From assembly GCF_003987435.1 (NCBI RefSeq), contig NZ_PIQG01000001.1, forward strand, positions 124,001-188,000: DNA of 64,000 nucleotides, written 5' to 3'. The number at the start of each line of letters is the position of its first letter. Position 1 is the stretch's first letter. This DNA is from Pseudidiomarina taiwanensis. GTDB taxonomy: Bacteria > Pseudomonadota > Gammaproteobacteria > Enterobacterales > Alteromonadaceae. The translations under genes and the position numbers were made by a program. The notes beneath the pieces were generated by a model. That model did no database searches and was not told the origin of the DNA. It worked only from the letters and a program-made list of their open reading frames with translations. Of the stretch, positions 57,695-64,000 are shown piece by piece.

Positions 57695-58054
57695 GGGGCT
57701 GATTCGGATTCGACGGGATACGCGAAACCCAAGGTGCATGCCGAGGTGAGGCAGGCCTCGTAAAAAGCCTCAAACTAATAGTTGCAAACGAAGACAACTA
57801 CGCTTTAGCGGCTTAATAACCCGCTATGCCCGAGCCCTAGCGCTTAGTCTGTGAGACTAGGATCACTCGGTTCACCCCATAGCAGACTCGCGTGGAGGCT
57901 TCGCCCGTAGCCAAGACGTTAAAACCAATCGGGATCGTCACCTTAAGTAGCCTGTTTGTCGGCGACTTGGTGATTAACTAAAAGACAAACTAAGCATGTA
58001 GTACCGAGGATGTAGGTATTGCGGACGCGGGTTCAACTCCCGCCAGCTCCACCA
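57695..58054 (+). ncRNA. ssrA: Transfer-messenger RNA
   Basis: 360 nt from GGGGCTGATTCGGATTCGAC to the 3' CCA. The tRNA-like halves pair at the ends, and the 3' T-arm reads GGGTTCAACTCCC. The resume codon GCA at 57784 opens a tag frame encoding ANEDNYALAA, ended by tandem TAA/TAA (57814-57819); it differs from E. coli (ANDENYALAA) by swapped D and E. The coding and pseudoknot regions are in the normal order. The 3' end is a frequent integrase target, and a tyrosine integrase gene follows directly. Confidence 0.97.
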
Positions 58055-58065
58055 AATCCAAAAAT

Positions 58066-58092
58066 AAAGACGTCTTCGGGCGTCTTTTTTTG
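58066..58092 (+). terminator. Rho-independent terminator after ssrA
   Basis: Stem AAAGACG/CGTCTTT with an 8-nt loop including TTCG and a T-run, 12 bp after the tmRNA CCA. Confidence 0.88.
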
Positions 58093-58153
58093 TTCATTTT
58101 TTCAATAATTACTGGGCTTTAGCCGTTTTATTGTGTATTAAAGTCCAAACTTG

Positions 58154-58224
58154 TCCAGTGACATCCAGTGAATCTAGTAGTACATTTAGTAGTACCTAAT
58201 AAGGTATGGTTCTAGAGGTACTAC
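58154..58224. repeat. Short direct and inverted repeats before the integrase gene
   Basis: TCCAGTGA occurs twice (58154, 58164), TAGTAGTAC twice (58175, 58187), and the inverse GGTACTAC once (58217), all within 70 bp. Such arrays are typical of integrase arm or Xis sites, or an autoregulatory operator next to attL. The role is inferred. Confidence 0.6.
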
Positions 58225-58227
58225 ATA

Positions 58228-59427
58228 ATGGCTCGGGTGAAGCCGCTAACAAATACTGAAGTCAAGCAAGCCAAACCGCGTCAGATGGTCTACAAGCTAT
58301 CAGATGGCGGTGGTCTTCAATTGAGAATCCGGCCCAACGGAAACAAATCCTGGTTGCTCGACTATATAAAGCCGAACACTAAAAAGCGCTCGGCTATAGG
58401 TCTCGGTGGATATCCAGCTTTATCGCTGGCGGATGCACGCAAGCAAAGAGAAATTTATCGAGAACTACTCGTTAGAGGTATCGACCCTAAAGATCATAAA
58501 GACAAGCAGCAAGTCGAGCGCTTACATAGTGCATCAAACACTTTTATGGTTGTGTCTCAAAGATGGTTTGAGGTTAAGCAAACTCAGGTGAGTAGAGATT
58601 ACGCTGATGACATTTGGCGATCGTTGGAAAAATACATCCTCCCCAAATTAGCAAATCATGCGATCGACAAGATCAGAGCACCTGAGGTGATTGATATTCT
58701 CAGACCGGTTTCCAGCAAAGGTAATCACGAGACAGTTAAGCGGTTATGTCAGCGCCTAAATGAAGTGATGGTTTTTGCTGTTAACACTGGACTTGTGCAT
58801 TCGAATCCACTGAGCGGATTAAAAGCTGCGTTTCCGAGTCCAGTGAAGTCCAATATGCCTGCACTTTTACCGAAAGAACTTCCGATGTTTTTGGAGGACC
58901 TAAGTTATGCCAGTGTCAAAATCGTCACAAGGCTTCTGATAGAGTGGCAACTGCACACTATGGTAAGACCAAATGAAGCTGCAGGCACTCGATGGAGCGA
59001 GTTAGACCTTGAACAGAAAGTCTGGGTTATTCCTGCTTCCAGAATGAAAAGGAAGCAGGAGCATATAGTCCCCTTGACTGACCGAGCACTGGAAATCATC
59101 CAGCGGCTGCGTCCAATTAGTGGCGAGAGTAAATTTCTGTTCCCCTCGGACCGTCATCCTAGTCAACATACAAATTCTCAGACTGCAAATATGGCAATTA
59201 AACGCATGGGATATGCTGGTCGCCTCGTCGCCCATGGAATGAGGTCTATCGCAAGTACCACATTAAATGAACAAGGTTTTGCCCCTGATATTATCGAGGC
59301 TGCTCTCGCTCACACGGATCAAAATCAGGTTAGAAGAGCCTACAATCGCTCAAATTACCTCGATCAAAGACGTGCGATGATGCAATGGTGGAGTGACCAT
59401 ATAGAGCAATCAAAATCGATGTCTTAA
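58228..59427 (+). CDS. Tyrosine recombinase, P4-type integrase
   Basis: Site-specific recombinase of 399 residues. The N-terminal DUF4102-type arm domain (KLSDGGGLQLRIRPNGNKSWLL) and a SAM-like core-binding domain (about 100-190) precede the catalytic domain. All catalytic residues are visible: R247 (MVRPNEA), H336-x-x-R339 (HGMRS), H362 (AHTD) and nucleophile Y372 (RRAYNRS). It lies 173 bp downstream of ssrA in the same direction, the usual layout of an element inserted in tmRNA. It appears intact and so the element may still be mobile. Confidence 0.96.
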   Translation: MARVKPLTNTEVKQAKPRQMVYKLSDGGGLQLRIRPNGNKSWLLDYIKPNTKKRSAIGLGGYPALSLADARKQREIYRELLVRGIDPKDHKDKQQVERLHSASNTFMVVSQRWFEVKQTQVSRDYADDIWRSLEKYILPKLANHAIDKIRAPEVIDILRPVSSKGNHETVKRLCQRLNEVMVFAVNTGLVHSNPLSGLKAAFPSPVKSNMPALLPKELPMFLEDLSYASVKIVTRLLIEWQLHTMVRPNEAAGTRWSELDLEQKVWVIPASRMKRKQEHIVPLTDRALEIIQRLRPISGESKFLFPSDRHPSQHTNSQTANMAIKRMGYAGRLVAHGMRSIASTTLNEQGFAPDIIEAALAHTDQNQVRRAYNRSNYLDQRRAMMQWWSDHIEQSKSMS

Positions 59428-59472
59428 CTGGTGTTCATGTATTGAAATCTGGATATAAGAGAGAGTTTGACG

Positions 59473-60159
59473 ATGGAATCATCAAAAAATTTATTTGAAA
59501 ATCATCACGGTAATGGTTTTTTCACGGTCGATGAAATAGTCCAGTTCAATATACTATCAGTACCGTTTGATAAAGTTAGCACCAAATTAAAGCAATATAT
59601 TTATGTCTCAGATATTACTTATGCGCCAGATAATAGACTAATAAAAATAAATGGATACTTCGTCATTGGGGGGACTGAATCTTACAAACTGACTGAAATC
59701 GATGATGAATTTAAAGCTTCCCCTGTTGTTATAACAAAGATAACTAGTGTTATCCTCGGTGAAGATAGTTTGACTGAACGCCCTATCCCTTATTTACCCA
59801 GCAGCGAATATAAATTGATTACAAAGCTTTCTTTGACAGAGCCATTATATTCATTTGCGGAGTTGATTAGAGTCTGTGATGCGCTCGATTTAGGAATGCC
59901 GGAATTACCGAATATTGACGCTAGATCAAAGAAAATCCATGATGGGATTTACTTTCCAATCTCCACACGTAAGCTAAGAGCAGCGCTAGAAGCACAAGAG
60001 ATTTATTGGGTACCATACCTTGATTCAGGACAACCCCCGCAGCAAAAAATGGTCATATTTGACATCGATAAAGCTCTTGGAAAAACGTCATCAGCCCCCT
60101 CTCGGACGGCCAATGAACTTGCTCTAGCTATTATGCCAGATGGTTTTAAATATAAGTGA
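59473..60159 (+). CDS. Unrecognised 228-residue island protein
   Basis: No family is recognised. The protein is soluble, with no signal peptide or membrane helix. The N-terminal half is rich in beta-type residues (KQYIYVSDITYAPDNRLIKI, YFVIGGTESYKL). The C-terminal half has a proline-rich stretch (ELPNIDAR) and a helical segment (STRKLRAALEAQEIYWVPYL), ending ANELALAIMPDGF. The ATG follows GAGAG. Codon use is AT-richer than the core genome. It sits between the integrase and AlpA genes, where satellites and integrative elements often carry cargo or regulators. Confidence 0.7.
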   Translation: MESSKNLFENHHGNGFFTVDEIVQFNILSVPFDKVSTKLKQYIYVSDITYAPDNRLIKINGYFVIGGTESYKLTEIDDEFKASPVVITKITSVILGEDSLTERPIPYLPSSEYKLITKLSLTEPLYSFAELIRVCDALDLGMPELPNIDARSKKIHDGIYFPISTRKLRAALEAQEIYWVPYLDSGQPPQQKMVIFDIDKALGKTSSAPSRTANELALAIMPDGFKYK

Positions 60160-60309
60160 TGTCATATCTATAACCCTTTAAAATCGGGGTGTCTGTTAGC
60201 GATATGGTATCTATTCAAAGTCACCATGACATTATGACACCATCGCAAATCCAACATGACGCAATTAAGCTCATAACCGTTTAGAGAAGCTCAAAAGGAG
60301 AGCACGGTT

Positions 60310-60579
60310 ATGAGTAAAGTGAATTTTCCAAGAATAGTCCGATTTCCAGAAGTCATCAAAATAACCGGATGGTCGAAATCTACCATATACAATCGTTTAA
60401 AAGTTGGCTTATTTCCAAAGCCAGTCAGTCTCGGTGCTCGATCAGTCGGGTTCGTAGAGAGTGAATTGCAAGAATATATGCATGCAGTCATTGCTGGACT
60501 TTCCGACGATGAATTACGACAAGTAGCTCGTAGCCTTTCGGCCCAACGTTTCAAATTGTACCAGACTAAAATACGATAA
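60310..60579 (+). CDS. alpA: AlpA family phage-type transcriptional regulator
   Basis: An 89-residue MerR-like winged helix protein. The helix-turn-helix reads RFPEVIKITGWSKSTIYNRLK, then GLFPKPVSLGARSVGFVESELQEYM, the standard AlpA layout. AlpA in CP4-57 controls excision through the integrase/excisionase system, so it probably switches the element between integrated and excised states. AAAAGGAGA is a strong ribosome site. Confidence 0.92.
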   Translation: MSKVNFPRIVRFPEVIKITGWSKSTIYNRLKVGLFPKPVSLGARSVGFVESELQEYMHAVIAGLSDDELRQVARSLSAQRFKLYQTKIR

Positions 60580-60687
60580 GTAGTAACGCAAAAGCATCAA
60601 TATCTAAAGGCAAGCATTTGAATTATAAATTATTAGTCTTTATTGGACATTAATCATAGGTTTTTTGCCCCGCATTTTTTTAGGTTT

Positions 60688-60707
60688 TCCTCGGAAGAGT
60701 CCGAGGA
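60688..60707. other. Perfect hairpin upstream of the Gp2-like gene
   Basis: TCCTCGGA and TCCGAGGA form a perfect 8-bp stem with loop AGAG, 77 bp before the next start codon. The downstream sequence has a smaller repeat (AGGA/TCCT around GATGGC). A T-run lies before, not after, the stem, so it is not a plus-strand terminator. It may be a Rep target or an RNA leader structure; this is inference. Confidence 0.6.
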
Positions 60708-60783
60708 GTAGGACGATGGCACATCCTGTGTTGATATTGATGATAGGTTTTTAATAATATCTCCTAAGGTTATTAGGTCTTTT

Positions 60784-61410
60784 ATGTCACACATCACTAG
60801 AAGTAGAATTGTTCGATATGATGGTCAGGATTGGTTTATTAATCATCGCTATGGTGGTGTATACCTGGGCGCTATGACATCAATTATGCGACAACTGCAT
60901 TGCATATTGGACTATCACAGTAAGATATTGGTCATTCGATTCGATTTGCGTCTTTATGTATACACTGCTGATAATGAAGTGATATCTCGATTTAATGAAT
61001 TGTTGCACCGCTGGCTTAGGAGAAACTATGGAATGAAACGTTTGGGGTTCTGCTGGGCTAGAGAGATGGAAAACAGTGATAAGCAACATTATCACTATGC
61101 ACTTATGCTAAACGGTCACAAAGTTAGGCATCCATCGAAAATTCTAGAACAAGCAAAATTGTATTGGGATGAATACATACAAGGCAGTTTTTTCGTACCT
61201 GAAAATTGCTATTACTTCATACAGAGACATGATAAGGAGGCCATGCAGAATGTGATTTTTCGTCTTTCATATCTCGCTAAAGTCAACGGAAAGGAAAGTA
61301 GGCCGGATCAGACTAAAAGATTTGGGTCGAGTCGGTTGGAGAATACTGGTTCACAGAGACTATCAAATAGAGTTAGTTCGAAAATGGTCGAAAGCTCACC
61401 CCACGTTTAA
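60784..61410 (+). CDS. YagK/YfjJ domain (inovirus Gp2-like) protein, possible replication initiator
   Basis: A 208-residue protein of the YagK_YfjJ_C / inovirus Gp2-like family, found in phage satellites and inovirus-related integrated elements. The core contains a histidine pair H102-x-H104 in HYHYALMLNG, reminiscent of HUH nucleases, and a Y163-x-x-K166 pair in LSYLAK, near the usual position of a Rep tyrosine. The C-terminus carries KRFGSSRL. Codon use is AT-rich. It follows AlpA by about 200 bp that include a hairpin. Rep activity is inferred from the motifs and family. Confidence 0.8.
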   Translation: MSHITRSRIVRYDGQDWFINHRYGGVYLGAMTSIMRQLHCILDYHSKILVIRFDLRLYVYTADNEVISRFNELLHRWLRRNYGMKRLGFCWAREMENSDKQHYHYALMLNGHKVRHPSKILEQAKLYWDEYIQGSFFVPENCYYFIQRHDKEAMQNVIFRLSYLAKVNGKESRPDQTKRFGSSRLENTGSQRLSNRVSSKMVESSPHV

Positions 61411-61652
61411 TCATGTTGAAGTTAGGTTTAAAAACCAATCGCAGAGTTTGATTTCGAATAAGATAATGTTAACAACATATCAAATGACGATAAAAATTAC
61501 AGAAGTAAAGTCAATAATTTCAGTGGTATTGTTGATAAATGTTCAAAATTTATCTCAGTTTACTAGAATGGGTAACGATAATTACTTTATTTGACACATT
61601 GCGCATTTCGTAAAGTTATCCACGCTCAATACATGAAATTCCTTCTCTACAA
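61411..61652. other. AT-rich gene-free stretch
   Basis: About 240 bp of AT-rich DNA with no convincing gene. It contains TTATCCACG (61616-61624), one base off the DnaA box consensus, and no clear att repeat. Confidence 0.4.
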
Positions 61653-61928
61653 CTAAATGAATCGGCAATACTTGGCAGCCGTTAAGGACAACGTTTCATC
61701 CTTGACTACTGTTTTCACTTCTTCTTTTCCAACTTTTTGAGCTAGGTCCTTTGTTGCGGAATCATAAGCGCTGCGGAGTTGCTCACTAAGTTTATCGCTC
61801 CCTATTTGTAAATAGCAGTATTGAGATGCAGGAAAATCGAAATCTAGAGGGTCATATACGCGGCCCGTTTTGAGCATCAATCTGATTAGCTTTGACCAGT
61901 ACTCGTCTGTTAACATTGTTCTTGGCAT
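61653..61928 (-). pseudogene. IS5-type transposase N-terminus fused to unrelated codons
   Basis: The first 26 residues, MPRTMLTDEYWSKLIRLMLK plus TGRVYD, match the N-terminus of IS5-family (IS1031/IS427-like) transposases. After that the family sequence stops abruptly, and 65 codons of unrelated sequence follow to the stop. The DDE catalytic domain is absent, so it cannot transpose. The IS promoter, with an extended TGGTATAAT box, lies just upstream on the same strand and could express the chimera. Confidence 0.75.
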
Positions 61929-62017
61929 GATGGGTTGTCATGGTTAGTTTTTGGCGAAAGTAATTATACCAGCCCATCATGCTGTCTAATAATCCATCGC
62001 GAAAGATCAACAAGCCC
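61851..62017 (-). mobile_element. Truncated IS5-family element, one end only
   Basis: On the minus strand the element seems to begin at GGGCTTGTTGATCTTTCGCG, which looks like an IS5-family terminal repeat, next to a TTA that may be half of a target duplication. It then runs through the promoter into the transposase start. The other end is missing; the break is at about 61851. Confidence 0.6.
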
Positions 62018-62116
62018 TAATAAGTTTATGGTATCATGATTCATGTAATCTCCTCCTTTAAGAAGCCGCAAAAAACGCGGCGCAAACTGCCTGCTTATTT
62101 GGAAAGGTGCTTATCC

Positions 62117-64000
62117 ATGGTTCACGATAATTCTGAGTCTCATTGTCATCACCATACACCCTCCCACACGGGCTCAGGGCTTACAGACCCGGTCTGCGGC
62201 ATGGGTGTAACGGCAGACTCTGCCCAGTATGTTGAGCATGCGGGTAAAACTTACTACTTCTGCAGCACCAAATGCATGAATAGATTCCAGCATGACCCTG
62301 AGAAGTTTCTTTCACCAACCCCGCCACCTCCCTCGGAAGCGGTCAAAGGCACAATTTATACGTGCCCGATGCATCCGGAAATACGTCAGGACAACCCCGG
62401 AACCTGCCCTAAATGCGGCATGGCACTTGAACCCCTGATGCCCAGTCTGGAAGATGACAATCCCGAGCTGGACGATTTTTCCAGGCGATTCTGGTGGACA
62501 TTGCCTTTTACCGTCATTGTCACGGTGCTTGCCATGTTTGGGCCACAGCTTGGCTGGTTCGAGATGGCGACGCAAACGTGGATAGAGCTTGTACTGTCGC
62601 TTCCCGTGGTGCTGTGGGCCGGACAGCCGTTCTTCGTACGGGGTTGGCAATCAGTGGTCAACCGCAGTCCCAACATGTGGACGCTCATCGGCTTGGGTAC
62701 CGGTGCCGCCTTCGTCTACAGCACGCTGGCAACCGTAGCTCCCGGTATATTTCCGGAAACATTCATGTCCATGGGGCGTGTGGCGGTTTATTTCGAAGCC
62801 GCAGTGGTGATCATTTCCCTTACGCTGTTTGGTCAGGTGCTGGAGCTTCGCGCGCGTTCCCAGACATCCGCTGCCGTCCGGTCATTGCTCGGTCTGGCGC
62901 CCAAGACGGCCCGCCGTATCAATGCAGACGGAACAGAAGAAGAAGTACCGCTGACGCATGTGCATGAAGGTGATCGTTTACGCGTACGTCCCGGTGAGAA
63001 AGTTCCTGTCGATGGCATTGTTGAAGAGGGTGCAAGTTCTCTCGATGAATCCATGTTGACTGGTGAATCGTTACCCATCAGCAAGCGCCCGGGTGACAAG
63101 GTCATAGGGGCAACGATGAACACCTCTGGTGCACTTGTGATCCGGGCGGAGAAAGTCGGCTCGGCCACTGTGTTGTCACAAATTGTCCAGTTGGTGGCTC
63201 AGGCCCAACGCTCTCGGGCGCCGATGCAACGGATGGCTGATTTGGTGGCGGGTTACTTTGTCATGGCGGTGGTAGCCATCGCCATCCTCACCTTGGTCGT
63301 GTGGGGCATGTTCGGCCCGCAGCCAAGCTGGGTCTATGGCCTGATCAATGCGGTCGCTGTTCTGATCATCGCTTGCCCTTGTGCGCTGGGGCTCGCAACG
63401 CCCATGTCAGTCATGGTTGCTACCGGACGAGGCGCAACCCAGGGTGTTCTGTTTCGTGATGCAGCAGCAATAGAAAATCTGCGCAAAGTCGATACGCTCA
63501 TCGTAGACAAGACCGGCACCTTGACAGAAGGCCGACCCGCATTCGATCAGGCTGTTTCCGCTGGCGAGTTGGACGCCGATGAAATCTTGCGCCTGGCTGC
63601 CAGCCTCGATCAAGGCAGCGAGCATCCTTTGGCTGACGCTATTGTCAGCGCTGCGCGCGAACGTAATTTGGTGCTCAGCCCAGTGGACGACTTTGACTCG
63701 GGTAGCGGCATAGGCGTACGGGGCAAGGTTGAAGGCAAAATACTGCTGTTGGGCAACACTGCGTTCATGCAGCAGGATAACGTCAATGTTGATGGCCTGG
63801 CTGCCACCGCTGAGGGATGGAGGATAAAGGGTGCGAGTGTGATGTACCTGGCGGTTGACGGCACACTGGTCGGCCTACTCGCCGTTTCCGACCCCATCAA
63901 ACAGAGCACCCCTGAAGCGGTACAGGCGCTCAAGGCCGCGGGAATCAGGGTCATCATGGCTACTGGTGACGGTATTTCAACGGCAAAAGCGGTCGCCGAA
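62117..64000 (+). CDS. Copper/silver-type P1B ATPase with YHS and MHPE-type metal domains, 3' end cut by window edge
   Basis: Metal-exporting P-type ATPase; 628 residues are visible and the frame stays open at the window edge. In place of an HMA domain it has a histidine-rich start (SHCHHH), a YHS domain (about 22-65, DPVCGMGV and YFCSTKC), and a heavy-metal-binding domain (about 80-107, CPMHPEI and CPKCGM). The catalytic TGES (315-318), the ion-site CPC (420-422) and the phosphorylated D464 in DKTGTLT are present. CPC indicates Cu(I) or Ag(I). The ATG follows GGAAAGG. The region is GC-richer than the neighbouring island, suggesting separate origin. Confidence 0.95.

Follow-up and report, generated by a model that had tools for sequence, protein, structure and literature searches.

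Gene content of the ssrA locus

We analyzed a window of 64,000 nucleotides (positions 124001-188000 of contig C1) from the 2.2 Mb genome of Pseudidiomarina taiwanensis, in which a small integrative element lies directly downstream of ssrA, the gene for transfer-messenger RNA (tmRNA). An initial annotation of this DNA had listed a tmRNA gene followed by an integrase, an unrecognized open reading frame (ORF), an AlpA regulator and a YagK/YfjJ protein, and all of these assignments are confirmed by ARAGORN, Rfam and protein family searches. The right limit that it had placed at 61652 corresponds to no boundary: DNA of low guanine-plus-cytosine (GC) content extends to a remnant of an insertion sequence (IS) at 61851-62019. 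The features of the locus are as follows, with attL denoting the left attachment site.

57695-58054, plus strand: ssrA (tmRNA), the integration target (ARAGORN; Rfam RF00023, 240.9 bits)
~58039-58054, plus strand: predicted attL core, the 3′ end of ssrA (the bounding repeats of relatives come from tmRNA or tRNA 3′ parts)
58175-58224: predicted arm-type integrase sites, TAGTAGTAC twice in direct orientation and GTACTAC once inverted
58228-59427, plus strand: tyrosine integrase of the IntA (CP4-57) type, 399 aa, uninterrupted (PF00589, 1.6e-28; Arm-DNA-bind_3, 4.9e-24)
59467-60159, plus strand: integrase-contiguous orphan ORF, read from TTG; the ATG at 59473 is the likelier start (228 aa)
60310-60579, plus strand: AlpA regulator/excisionase (PF05930, 2.8e-18)
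60657-60670, plus strand: box1 of a conserved cis module, TAGGTTTTTTGCCC
60688-60707: perfect hairpin, TCCTCGGAAGAGTCCGAGGA
60745-60761, plus strand: box2, AGGTTTTTAATAATATC, 88 bp from box1 and overlapping a promoter-like site
60784-61410, plus strand: YagK/YfjJ (inovirus-type Gp2) protein, a probable HUH replication initiator (YagK_YfjJ_C, 3.7e-16)
61411-61850: last low-GC DNA, including the 3′ portion of an ORF on the minus strand, which stops at 61653
61851-62019, minus strand: remnant of ISSpu10 (IS5 family), 169 of ~885 nt, marking the junction 61850/61851

The integrase passes the NCBIfam NF007246 cut-off and shares 51% identity with Escherichia coli IntA (CP4-57) over 400 aligned positions, and the AlpA protein is 41% identical to K-12 AlpA over 56 aligned positions. 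The GC content is 40.1% in 58055-61850, compared with 49.4% in window positions 1-57694 and 55.9% in 62020-64000. We consider this region likely to be the remaining left portion of a small element of the CP4-57 IntA type integrated in ssrA, whose intact form would have resembled a minimal phage satellite of the phage-inducible chromosomal minimalist island (PICMI) type.

Related islands and their boundaries

When 394 genomes of the order were searched with the YagK protein, 70 gave a match, the own genome among them. Surroundings were retrieved for the best 19 matches besides the own one and for one further genome (G037), chosen for its homologue of the orphan ORF. A scan of a contig collection added 20 named loci, and six of the 19 are apparently the same records, which gives 33 distinct loci; the named loci come from Colwellia, Thalassotalea, Pseudoalteromonas, Shewanella, Psychromonas, Glaciecola, Vibrio and others. 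The more complete relatives are for the most part from marine bacteria. An alpA match (E ≤ 1e-3) lies upstream of yagK on the same strand in 32 of the 33 distinct loci (window copy excluded), and an integrase match lies within 9 kb of yagK in 29. The four loci lacking the latter include one that starts just 1.5 kb upstream of yagK and L101, whose integrase lies slightly past 9 kb. A tRNA or tmRNA gene is found within 700 nt of the integrase gene (int) in 20 of the 33 loci (9 tmRNA, 11 tRNA). The backbone order in these relatives is int, a variable ORF, alpA, the replication gene and cargo; for L117, the integrase and AlpA assignments are confirmed by Pfam. Arm-like repeats precede int in several relatives and occur again near the right end in L113 and L123.

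A second copy of the 3′ part of the RNA gene, 14-38 nt long, lies beyond yagK in 12 of the 22 relatives tested (E ≤ 1e-3; the best E of a reversed-query control is 0.006). For L121, a 14-nt match at 5.2 kb was taken, and a longer tmRNA piece recurs at 10.2 kb. Three further elements, with the tRNA at the opposite end, carry repeats of 51, 54 and 47 nt. The 15 repeat-bounded elements measure 3.8-8.5 kb; in the largest, L125, yagK is interrupted by another gene. Overall, the repeats that bound elements of relatives span 14-76 nt. Some features of the collection weigh against the proposed reading: the remaining 10 of the 22 relatives tested show no repeat at E ≤ 1e-3 (one had 44 nt to search), and some family matches are poor, as in L102, whose alpA match contains a stop, and in L090, where alpA scores below the Pfam cut-off and int is matched by a fragment of 72 residues.

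To describe gene content beyond the backbone, 77 ORFs of at least 60 aa other than int, alpA and yagK were compared with Pfam (E ≤ 0.001) in 15 elements (L092, L093, L111, L113-L115, L117, L118, L120-L123 and L125-L127, the repeat of L113 being weak). None of the 77 matched a primase, capsid, portal or large terminase family at this threshold. Ten families were matched in all, including Terminase_2, HipA_2 and a transposase, once each. The Terminase_2 match is the terminase small subunit of L111 (PHROG 51, 6.2e-13; Pfam 0.0008, below cut-off), and L113 carries a candidate defence pair, PDC-M66. Two genes recur near the right end of several relatives, encoding a ‘YMSGDIRHLIN’ protein of 75-80 aa and a ‘MPKGxHYGR’ protein of 205 aa (L112:9675-10539, L113:10553-11434, L123:10182-11059 and L125:8951-9827); packaging or transfer functions are possible. 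For the L113 pair, Pfam returned nothing and PHROG nothing better than 0.09.

Missing right end

The right end of the element is absent from this genome. A 32-mer from the ssrA 3′ end, searched across the whole genome with up to three mismatches, matches only itself; a 16-mer, with up to two mismatches, gives one exact match (itself) and three two-mismatch matches, compared with three control matches. Over the next 46 kb, on both strands, no 12-mer is shared with 57901-58228 apart from one low-complexity match, and a tmRNA blastn search of the own genome likewise found no second ssrA 3′ copy. An 11-nt ssrA match at C1 ~191970 was rejected as a repeat, being at chance level (E 0.12). The arm-type site TAGTAGTAC is not repeated on its strand over the 66 kb that start at 57695, where the shorter GTAGTAC and GTACTAC recur at about chance frequency only.

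Positions 61851-62019 are 98.8% identical to one end of ISSpu10, and this remnant is its sole trace, as no other ISSpu10 copies were found in the genome. A 91-aa minus-strand ORF (61653-61928) spans the junction and begins at the start of the IS transposase. From the remnant onward, the GC content climbs to 55.9% and metal-resistance genes come next. The simplest reading is a deletion that removed the right end and had one of its breakpoints within a copy of ISSpu10.

For the initial annotation, the lack of a downstream ssrA 3′ copy would have spoken against its proposal. No such copy is found, but relatives with the same backbone carry the duplication (12 of 22 tested), which makes loss of the right end, at the IS remnant, the better reading here. 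The integrative element in ssrA that the initial annotation had proposed is borne out. As to its choice between a minimal and a decayed satellite, the gene set is satellite-like and the element is decayed, whereas a complete minimal form does not hold, the right side stopping at the IS remnant: the window copy is a decayed left half. Past the junction, the window copy lacks the right attachment site (attR), the right arm sites and whatever cargo there was, and it should therefore be unable to excise.

YagK as a putative replication initiator

YagK is probably a rolling-circle replication initiator (Rep) of the HUH type, as several indirect lines of evidence suggest. Judging by its sequence, the protein contains a HUH motif and a candidate catalytic tyrosine; H102, H104, Y163 and K166 are invariant in 22 of 22 aligned proteins, and in 14 of 14 in a set that includes K-12 YfjJ. 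The Pfam family REP_ORF2-G2P scores below its cut-off for the window YagK and above it for the relative encoded by plasmid pA41H1. The predicted structure (mean predicted local distance difference test score, pLDDT, 84) has its best VIA match in 2x3g, SIRV1 ORF119 (Z 9.2, 114 residues, 4.1 Å), two units above the rest; SIRV1 ORF119 is a HUH Rep. The YagK protein is matched by 46 plasmid records. Plasmid pA41H1 is a circle of 2,626 bp in which Gp2 is the sole ORF longer than 64 aa when read round the circle, so that a role of Gp2 in starting replication there is hard to avoid.

Three observations speak against this assignment. In VIA, parvoviral Reps rank after 2x3g and score no better than unrelated proteins (Z ~7); a Foldseek search with the YagK model gave no match at E ≤ 0.001; and the Psychrobacter plasmid pA46P3 carries RepM beside Gp2. 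A profile search of solved structures by sequence returned nothing relevant. The Psychrobacter ANT_H3 plasmids have other Rep types, and ‘Gp2’ does not occur in the main text describing them, as far as that text is available (PMC10457243).

A conserved two-box module upstream of yagK

The region between alpA and yagK contains two conserved boxes, for which the consensus sequences NRGGTTTTTWACCC (box1) and GGDWAWTTNWTAATATC (box2) were used in a scan of 33 loci (window included, L129 left out) with up to three mismatches. Both boxes are found in 27 of the 33 loci, and in 25 of these 27 they are spaced 88-94 bp apart (~91 bp); in the 27 loci, box2 lies 30-101 nt from the start codon. In random 300-nt stretches of the same loci, both boxes occurred in 39 of 5991, with none spaced 85-95 bp apart. 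A search for RNA structure yielded three pairs and no covariation, so the module is treated as DNA. The hairpin TCCTCGGAAGAGTCCGAGGA, which lies between the boxes in the window, was not found in the other upstream regions compared.

Our preferred reading is that the module is a candidate origin for YagK; it may also be a regulated promoter. The origin reading has to be balanced against several points. The boxes were defined from the same loci, which makes their presence partly circular, although the constant spacing is not. The box2 18-mer shows no enrichment across genomes: it matched 10 times in the 394 genomes, three of these matches preceding yagK, vs 14 times in the control. In addition, box2 overlaps the promoter-like site. 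No boxes were found before CP4-57 yfjJ; a box2-like sequence with two mismatches precedes gp2 in two of five small plasmids and was not found in the other three; and a same-genus island, L154, has an exact box2 and no clear box1. By eye, GTTAGTnnTTxCTTAC-like dyads flank box1 in several relatives (L110:7800-7945, L117:7744-7950), as possible binding sites for AlpA or Rep.

The ORF between int and alpA

The orphan ORF has no match in Pfam (E ≤ 1), PHROG (E ≤ 1), NCBIfam (E ≤ 0.001) or PADLOC (E ≤ 0.01), and no relatives in phages, plasmids or the contig collection. Its single homologue, found among 59 genomes and again among the 394, is encoded in G037, likewise in int-ORF-alpA order, and its lone-sequence fold is uninformative (pLDDT 37.6). 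In selected loci, 22 proteins from the int-alpA slot fall into 12 groups (BLASTP, E ≤ 0.05) with one weak inter-group link (E 0.008), and int overlaps the slot ORF by 4 nt (ATGA) in six loci. By analogy with PICMI, we propose that the orphan ORF encodes an excision accessory.

Proposed life cycle and alternative explanations

In the proposed cycle of an intact element, infection by a helper phage would raise AlpA, and AlpA, the integrase and the contiguous protein would together excise a circle at the ssrA repeats. YagK would then nick the box1/box2 module and drive rolling-circle replication into concatemers, which the helper phage would package. The steps before and after replication, namely the AlpA switch, the role of the contiguous ORF and packaging by a phage, are modelled by analogy on known systems. 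Transfer by phage is plausible because a jumbo phage is reported to transduce I55, a Pseudomonas tmRNA island with an integrase, AlpA and a Gp2-like protein (PMC12595487, in the part available).

More tentatively, and with doubt slightly outweighing confidence, the relatives may represent widespread minimal satellites (~4-8 kb) of marine gammaproteobacteria in which a plasmid-type HUH initiator replaces the primase and acts on a rigid two-box origin (~91 bp), the element's own Rep thus making the concatemers for headful packaging; the window would hold a decayed member with its replication module intact. The two-box module and the unrelated proteins of the int-adjacent slot are concrete, testable parts of this scheme, the window copy itself being only a remnant.

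The main rival, which we regard as rather unlikely yet deserving of attention, is an integrative small plasmid that integrates and excises through Int, replicates by ordinary rolling circle and spreads by transformation or through mobilization on other elements. Gp2/YagK relatives do reside on circular plasmids, five of them of 2.6-5.5 kb, and a packaging family was matched by just one of the 77 non-core ORFs of the 15 elements, through a weak Terminase_2 hit. However, the gene order, the second-ORF slot with its ATGA overlaps and AlpA match those of PICMI, which, in the available text, is packaged by phage apparently without a terS gene of its own (PMC10803314), and one relative each encodes a terminase small subunit (L111) and a candidate defence pair (L113).

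That the metal-resistance block is cargo of the same island, with an attR beyond it that was later lost, is improbable. The block directly follows the IS remnant, and Pseudomonas tmRNA islands are larger and varied in cargo (PMC12595487, in the part available); however, the GC content steps within ~500 nt, the IS remnant sits at the junction, an ISL3 transposase accompanies the metal genes in the block, and complete relatives measure at most 8.5 kb. The block extends from window position 62036 to L004:6764 (C1 ~186036-194764), to the right of the junction. NCBIfam matches in it are a CadR/PbrR regulator, a cation transporter (below cut-off), the ISL3 transposase, which resembles ISPpu12, and then CueR; by eye, it also contains a heavy-metal P-type ATPase and an LspA-like protein, with a CopA-like ATPase after CueR. 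An apparently broken integron integrase fragment lies at L004:7509-8006 (TIGR02249, 6.7e-28, below cut-off).

Less probable still is a complete element that is minimal in its present form, its attR near 61.6 kb being too short or too diverged to be recognized. The left-end genes are indeed uninterrupted, and some relatives are bounded by repeats as short as 14 nt, but the next 46 kb share no 12-mer other than the low-complexity match, the exact 16-mer match is only itself, right-hand TAGTAGTAC sites are lacking, and the junction carries the IS remnant.

An inovirus remnant, suggested by the initial annotation and by the family name ‘inovirus-type Gp2’ in plasmid records, can be set aside almost entirely: a link beyond the protein name is not supported, the integrase and AlpA are of the CP4-57 type, relatives were found as chromosomal islands and as plasmids, many being small, and no filamentous-phage family (capsid and assembly genes included) appears among the matches of the surviving genes or, in Pfam, among the 77 non-core ORFs of the relatives. 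On three IMG/VR contigs (L104, L106 and L107), the ORFs scanned likewise include no filamentous-phage protein; they encode integrases, a phage-type repressor and cargo, and a terminase is matched once, weakly and in part (35 residues, 4.3e-5). The apparent cargo of L107 (9689-11583), a YagK-bearing contig, consists of thymidylate-synthase-like and thymine-modification-type genes.

Distribution in the genus

A tmRNA match is present in all 26 genomes of the genus, and because seven of the 26 show further short 3′-end matches, repeats of the ssrA 3′ type are common in it. An integrase match directly follows ssrA in 3 of 25 relatives' stretches (46-48% identity in G006 and G012, 32% in G019); weaker matches (20-25%) in G002, G005 and G007 lie ~1 kb or more beyond ssrA. 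Integrases related to the window's lie directly after ssrA in three stretches from genus relatives, L045, L050 and L051, together with an AlpA-like match in L050, so that other islands use this site too. The element itself is sporadic, as expected for mobile DNA, since a YagK relative occurs in 4 of the 26 genomes, one of these being the own genome (identity is 31-40% in the remaining three, with the value of 40% covering 77 residues only), and the orphan ORF in none of the 25 relatives. A comparison with empty sites within the genus found no shared flanking gene, the DNA to the right of ssrA being too divergent between the stretches compared.

Comparison with known systems

CP4-57 of E. coli K-12, whose integration site is also ssrA, begins with intA, yfjH, alpA, yfjI and yfjJ. 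The window has intA (51%), an ORF, alpA (41% over 56 positions) and a yfjJ-family gene in the same relative order, and thus all three of an IntA-type integrase at ssrA, alpA and a YfjJ-family gene; the direct repeat of the ssrA 3′ end that marks the far border of IntA-type ssrA islands was not found, the right end being missing. CP4-57 differs in its size (~22 kb), in having yfjI (DUF3987) between alpA and yfjJ, and in the opposite strand of yfjH; its YfjJ is weakly similar to the window YagK (27% over 81 positions), and box1 and box2 were not found in it.

The Pseudomonas tmRNA islands I23, I44 and I55 have an integrase at tmRNA, AlpA and an inovirus Gp2-like protein; unlike the present element, they are larger, carry alpA and gp2 near the 3′ end, far from int, and frequently encode YqaJ and RadC, according to the accessible part of PMC12595487. 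Small Gp2-type plasmids (e.g., pA41H1, 2,626 bp) share the Rep-like family and, in two of five, the box2-like sequence, but are autonomous circles, and neither AlpA nor a tyrosine integrase is named in their five gene tables, which are incomplete. Charybdis elements (PMC12324425) and the elements of a Vibrio population study (PMC13230959) were considered and are different elements, as far as the available text of these sources describes them. Among the best-ranked matches in the openly licensed literature, we found no description of minimal islands of such a layout with YagK/Gp2 as the replication gene or of the two-box module.

Another close parallel is with PICMIs, phage satellites of Vibrionaceae, here as described in the available part of PMC10803314. 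Their layout comprises int, an ORF that overlaps or adjoins int and comes from many unrelated families (the iolg/icg slot, with 13 families), alpA, often a short ORF, and a replication gene, followed by accessory genes that include a defence gene; the prototype measures 6.1 kb. Excision requires the iolg gene and is triggered by expression of alpA; concatemers are described as arising by rolling-circle replication, and apparently no terS-type gene has been identified. The window has int and AlpA co-localized, and the 4-nt overlap of int with the second ORF in relatives is like that with iolg. PICMIs differ in that their definition includes a DUF3987/DUF5906 primase, which the published model requires; YagK/Gp2 takes its place here, and no primase is found among the surviving genes of the window. 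They also differ in their fis integration site, optional in one published search, as opposed to ssrA here and ssrA or tRNA genes in the relatives. Islands with a probable HUH Rep are of interest because PICMIs are described as rolling-circle replicators, yet the replication gene known from them encodes a putative primase (PMC10803314). Islands of PICMI layout with a probable HUH Rep therefore offer a direct route to testing how minimal satellites form packageable concatemers.

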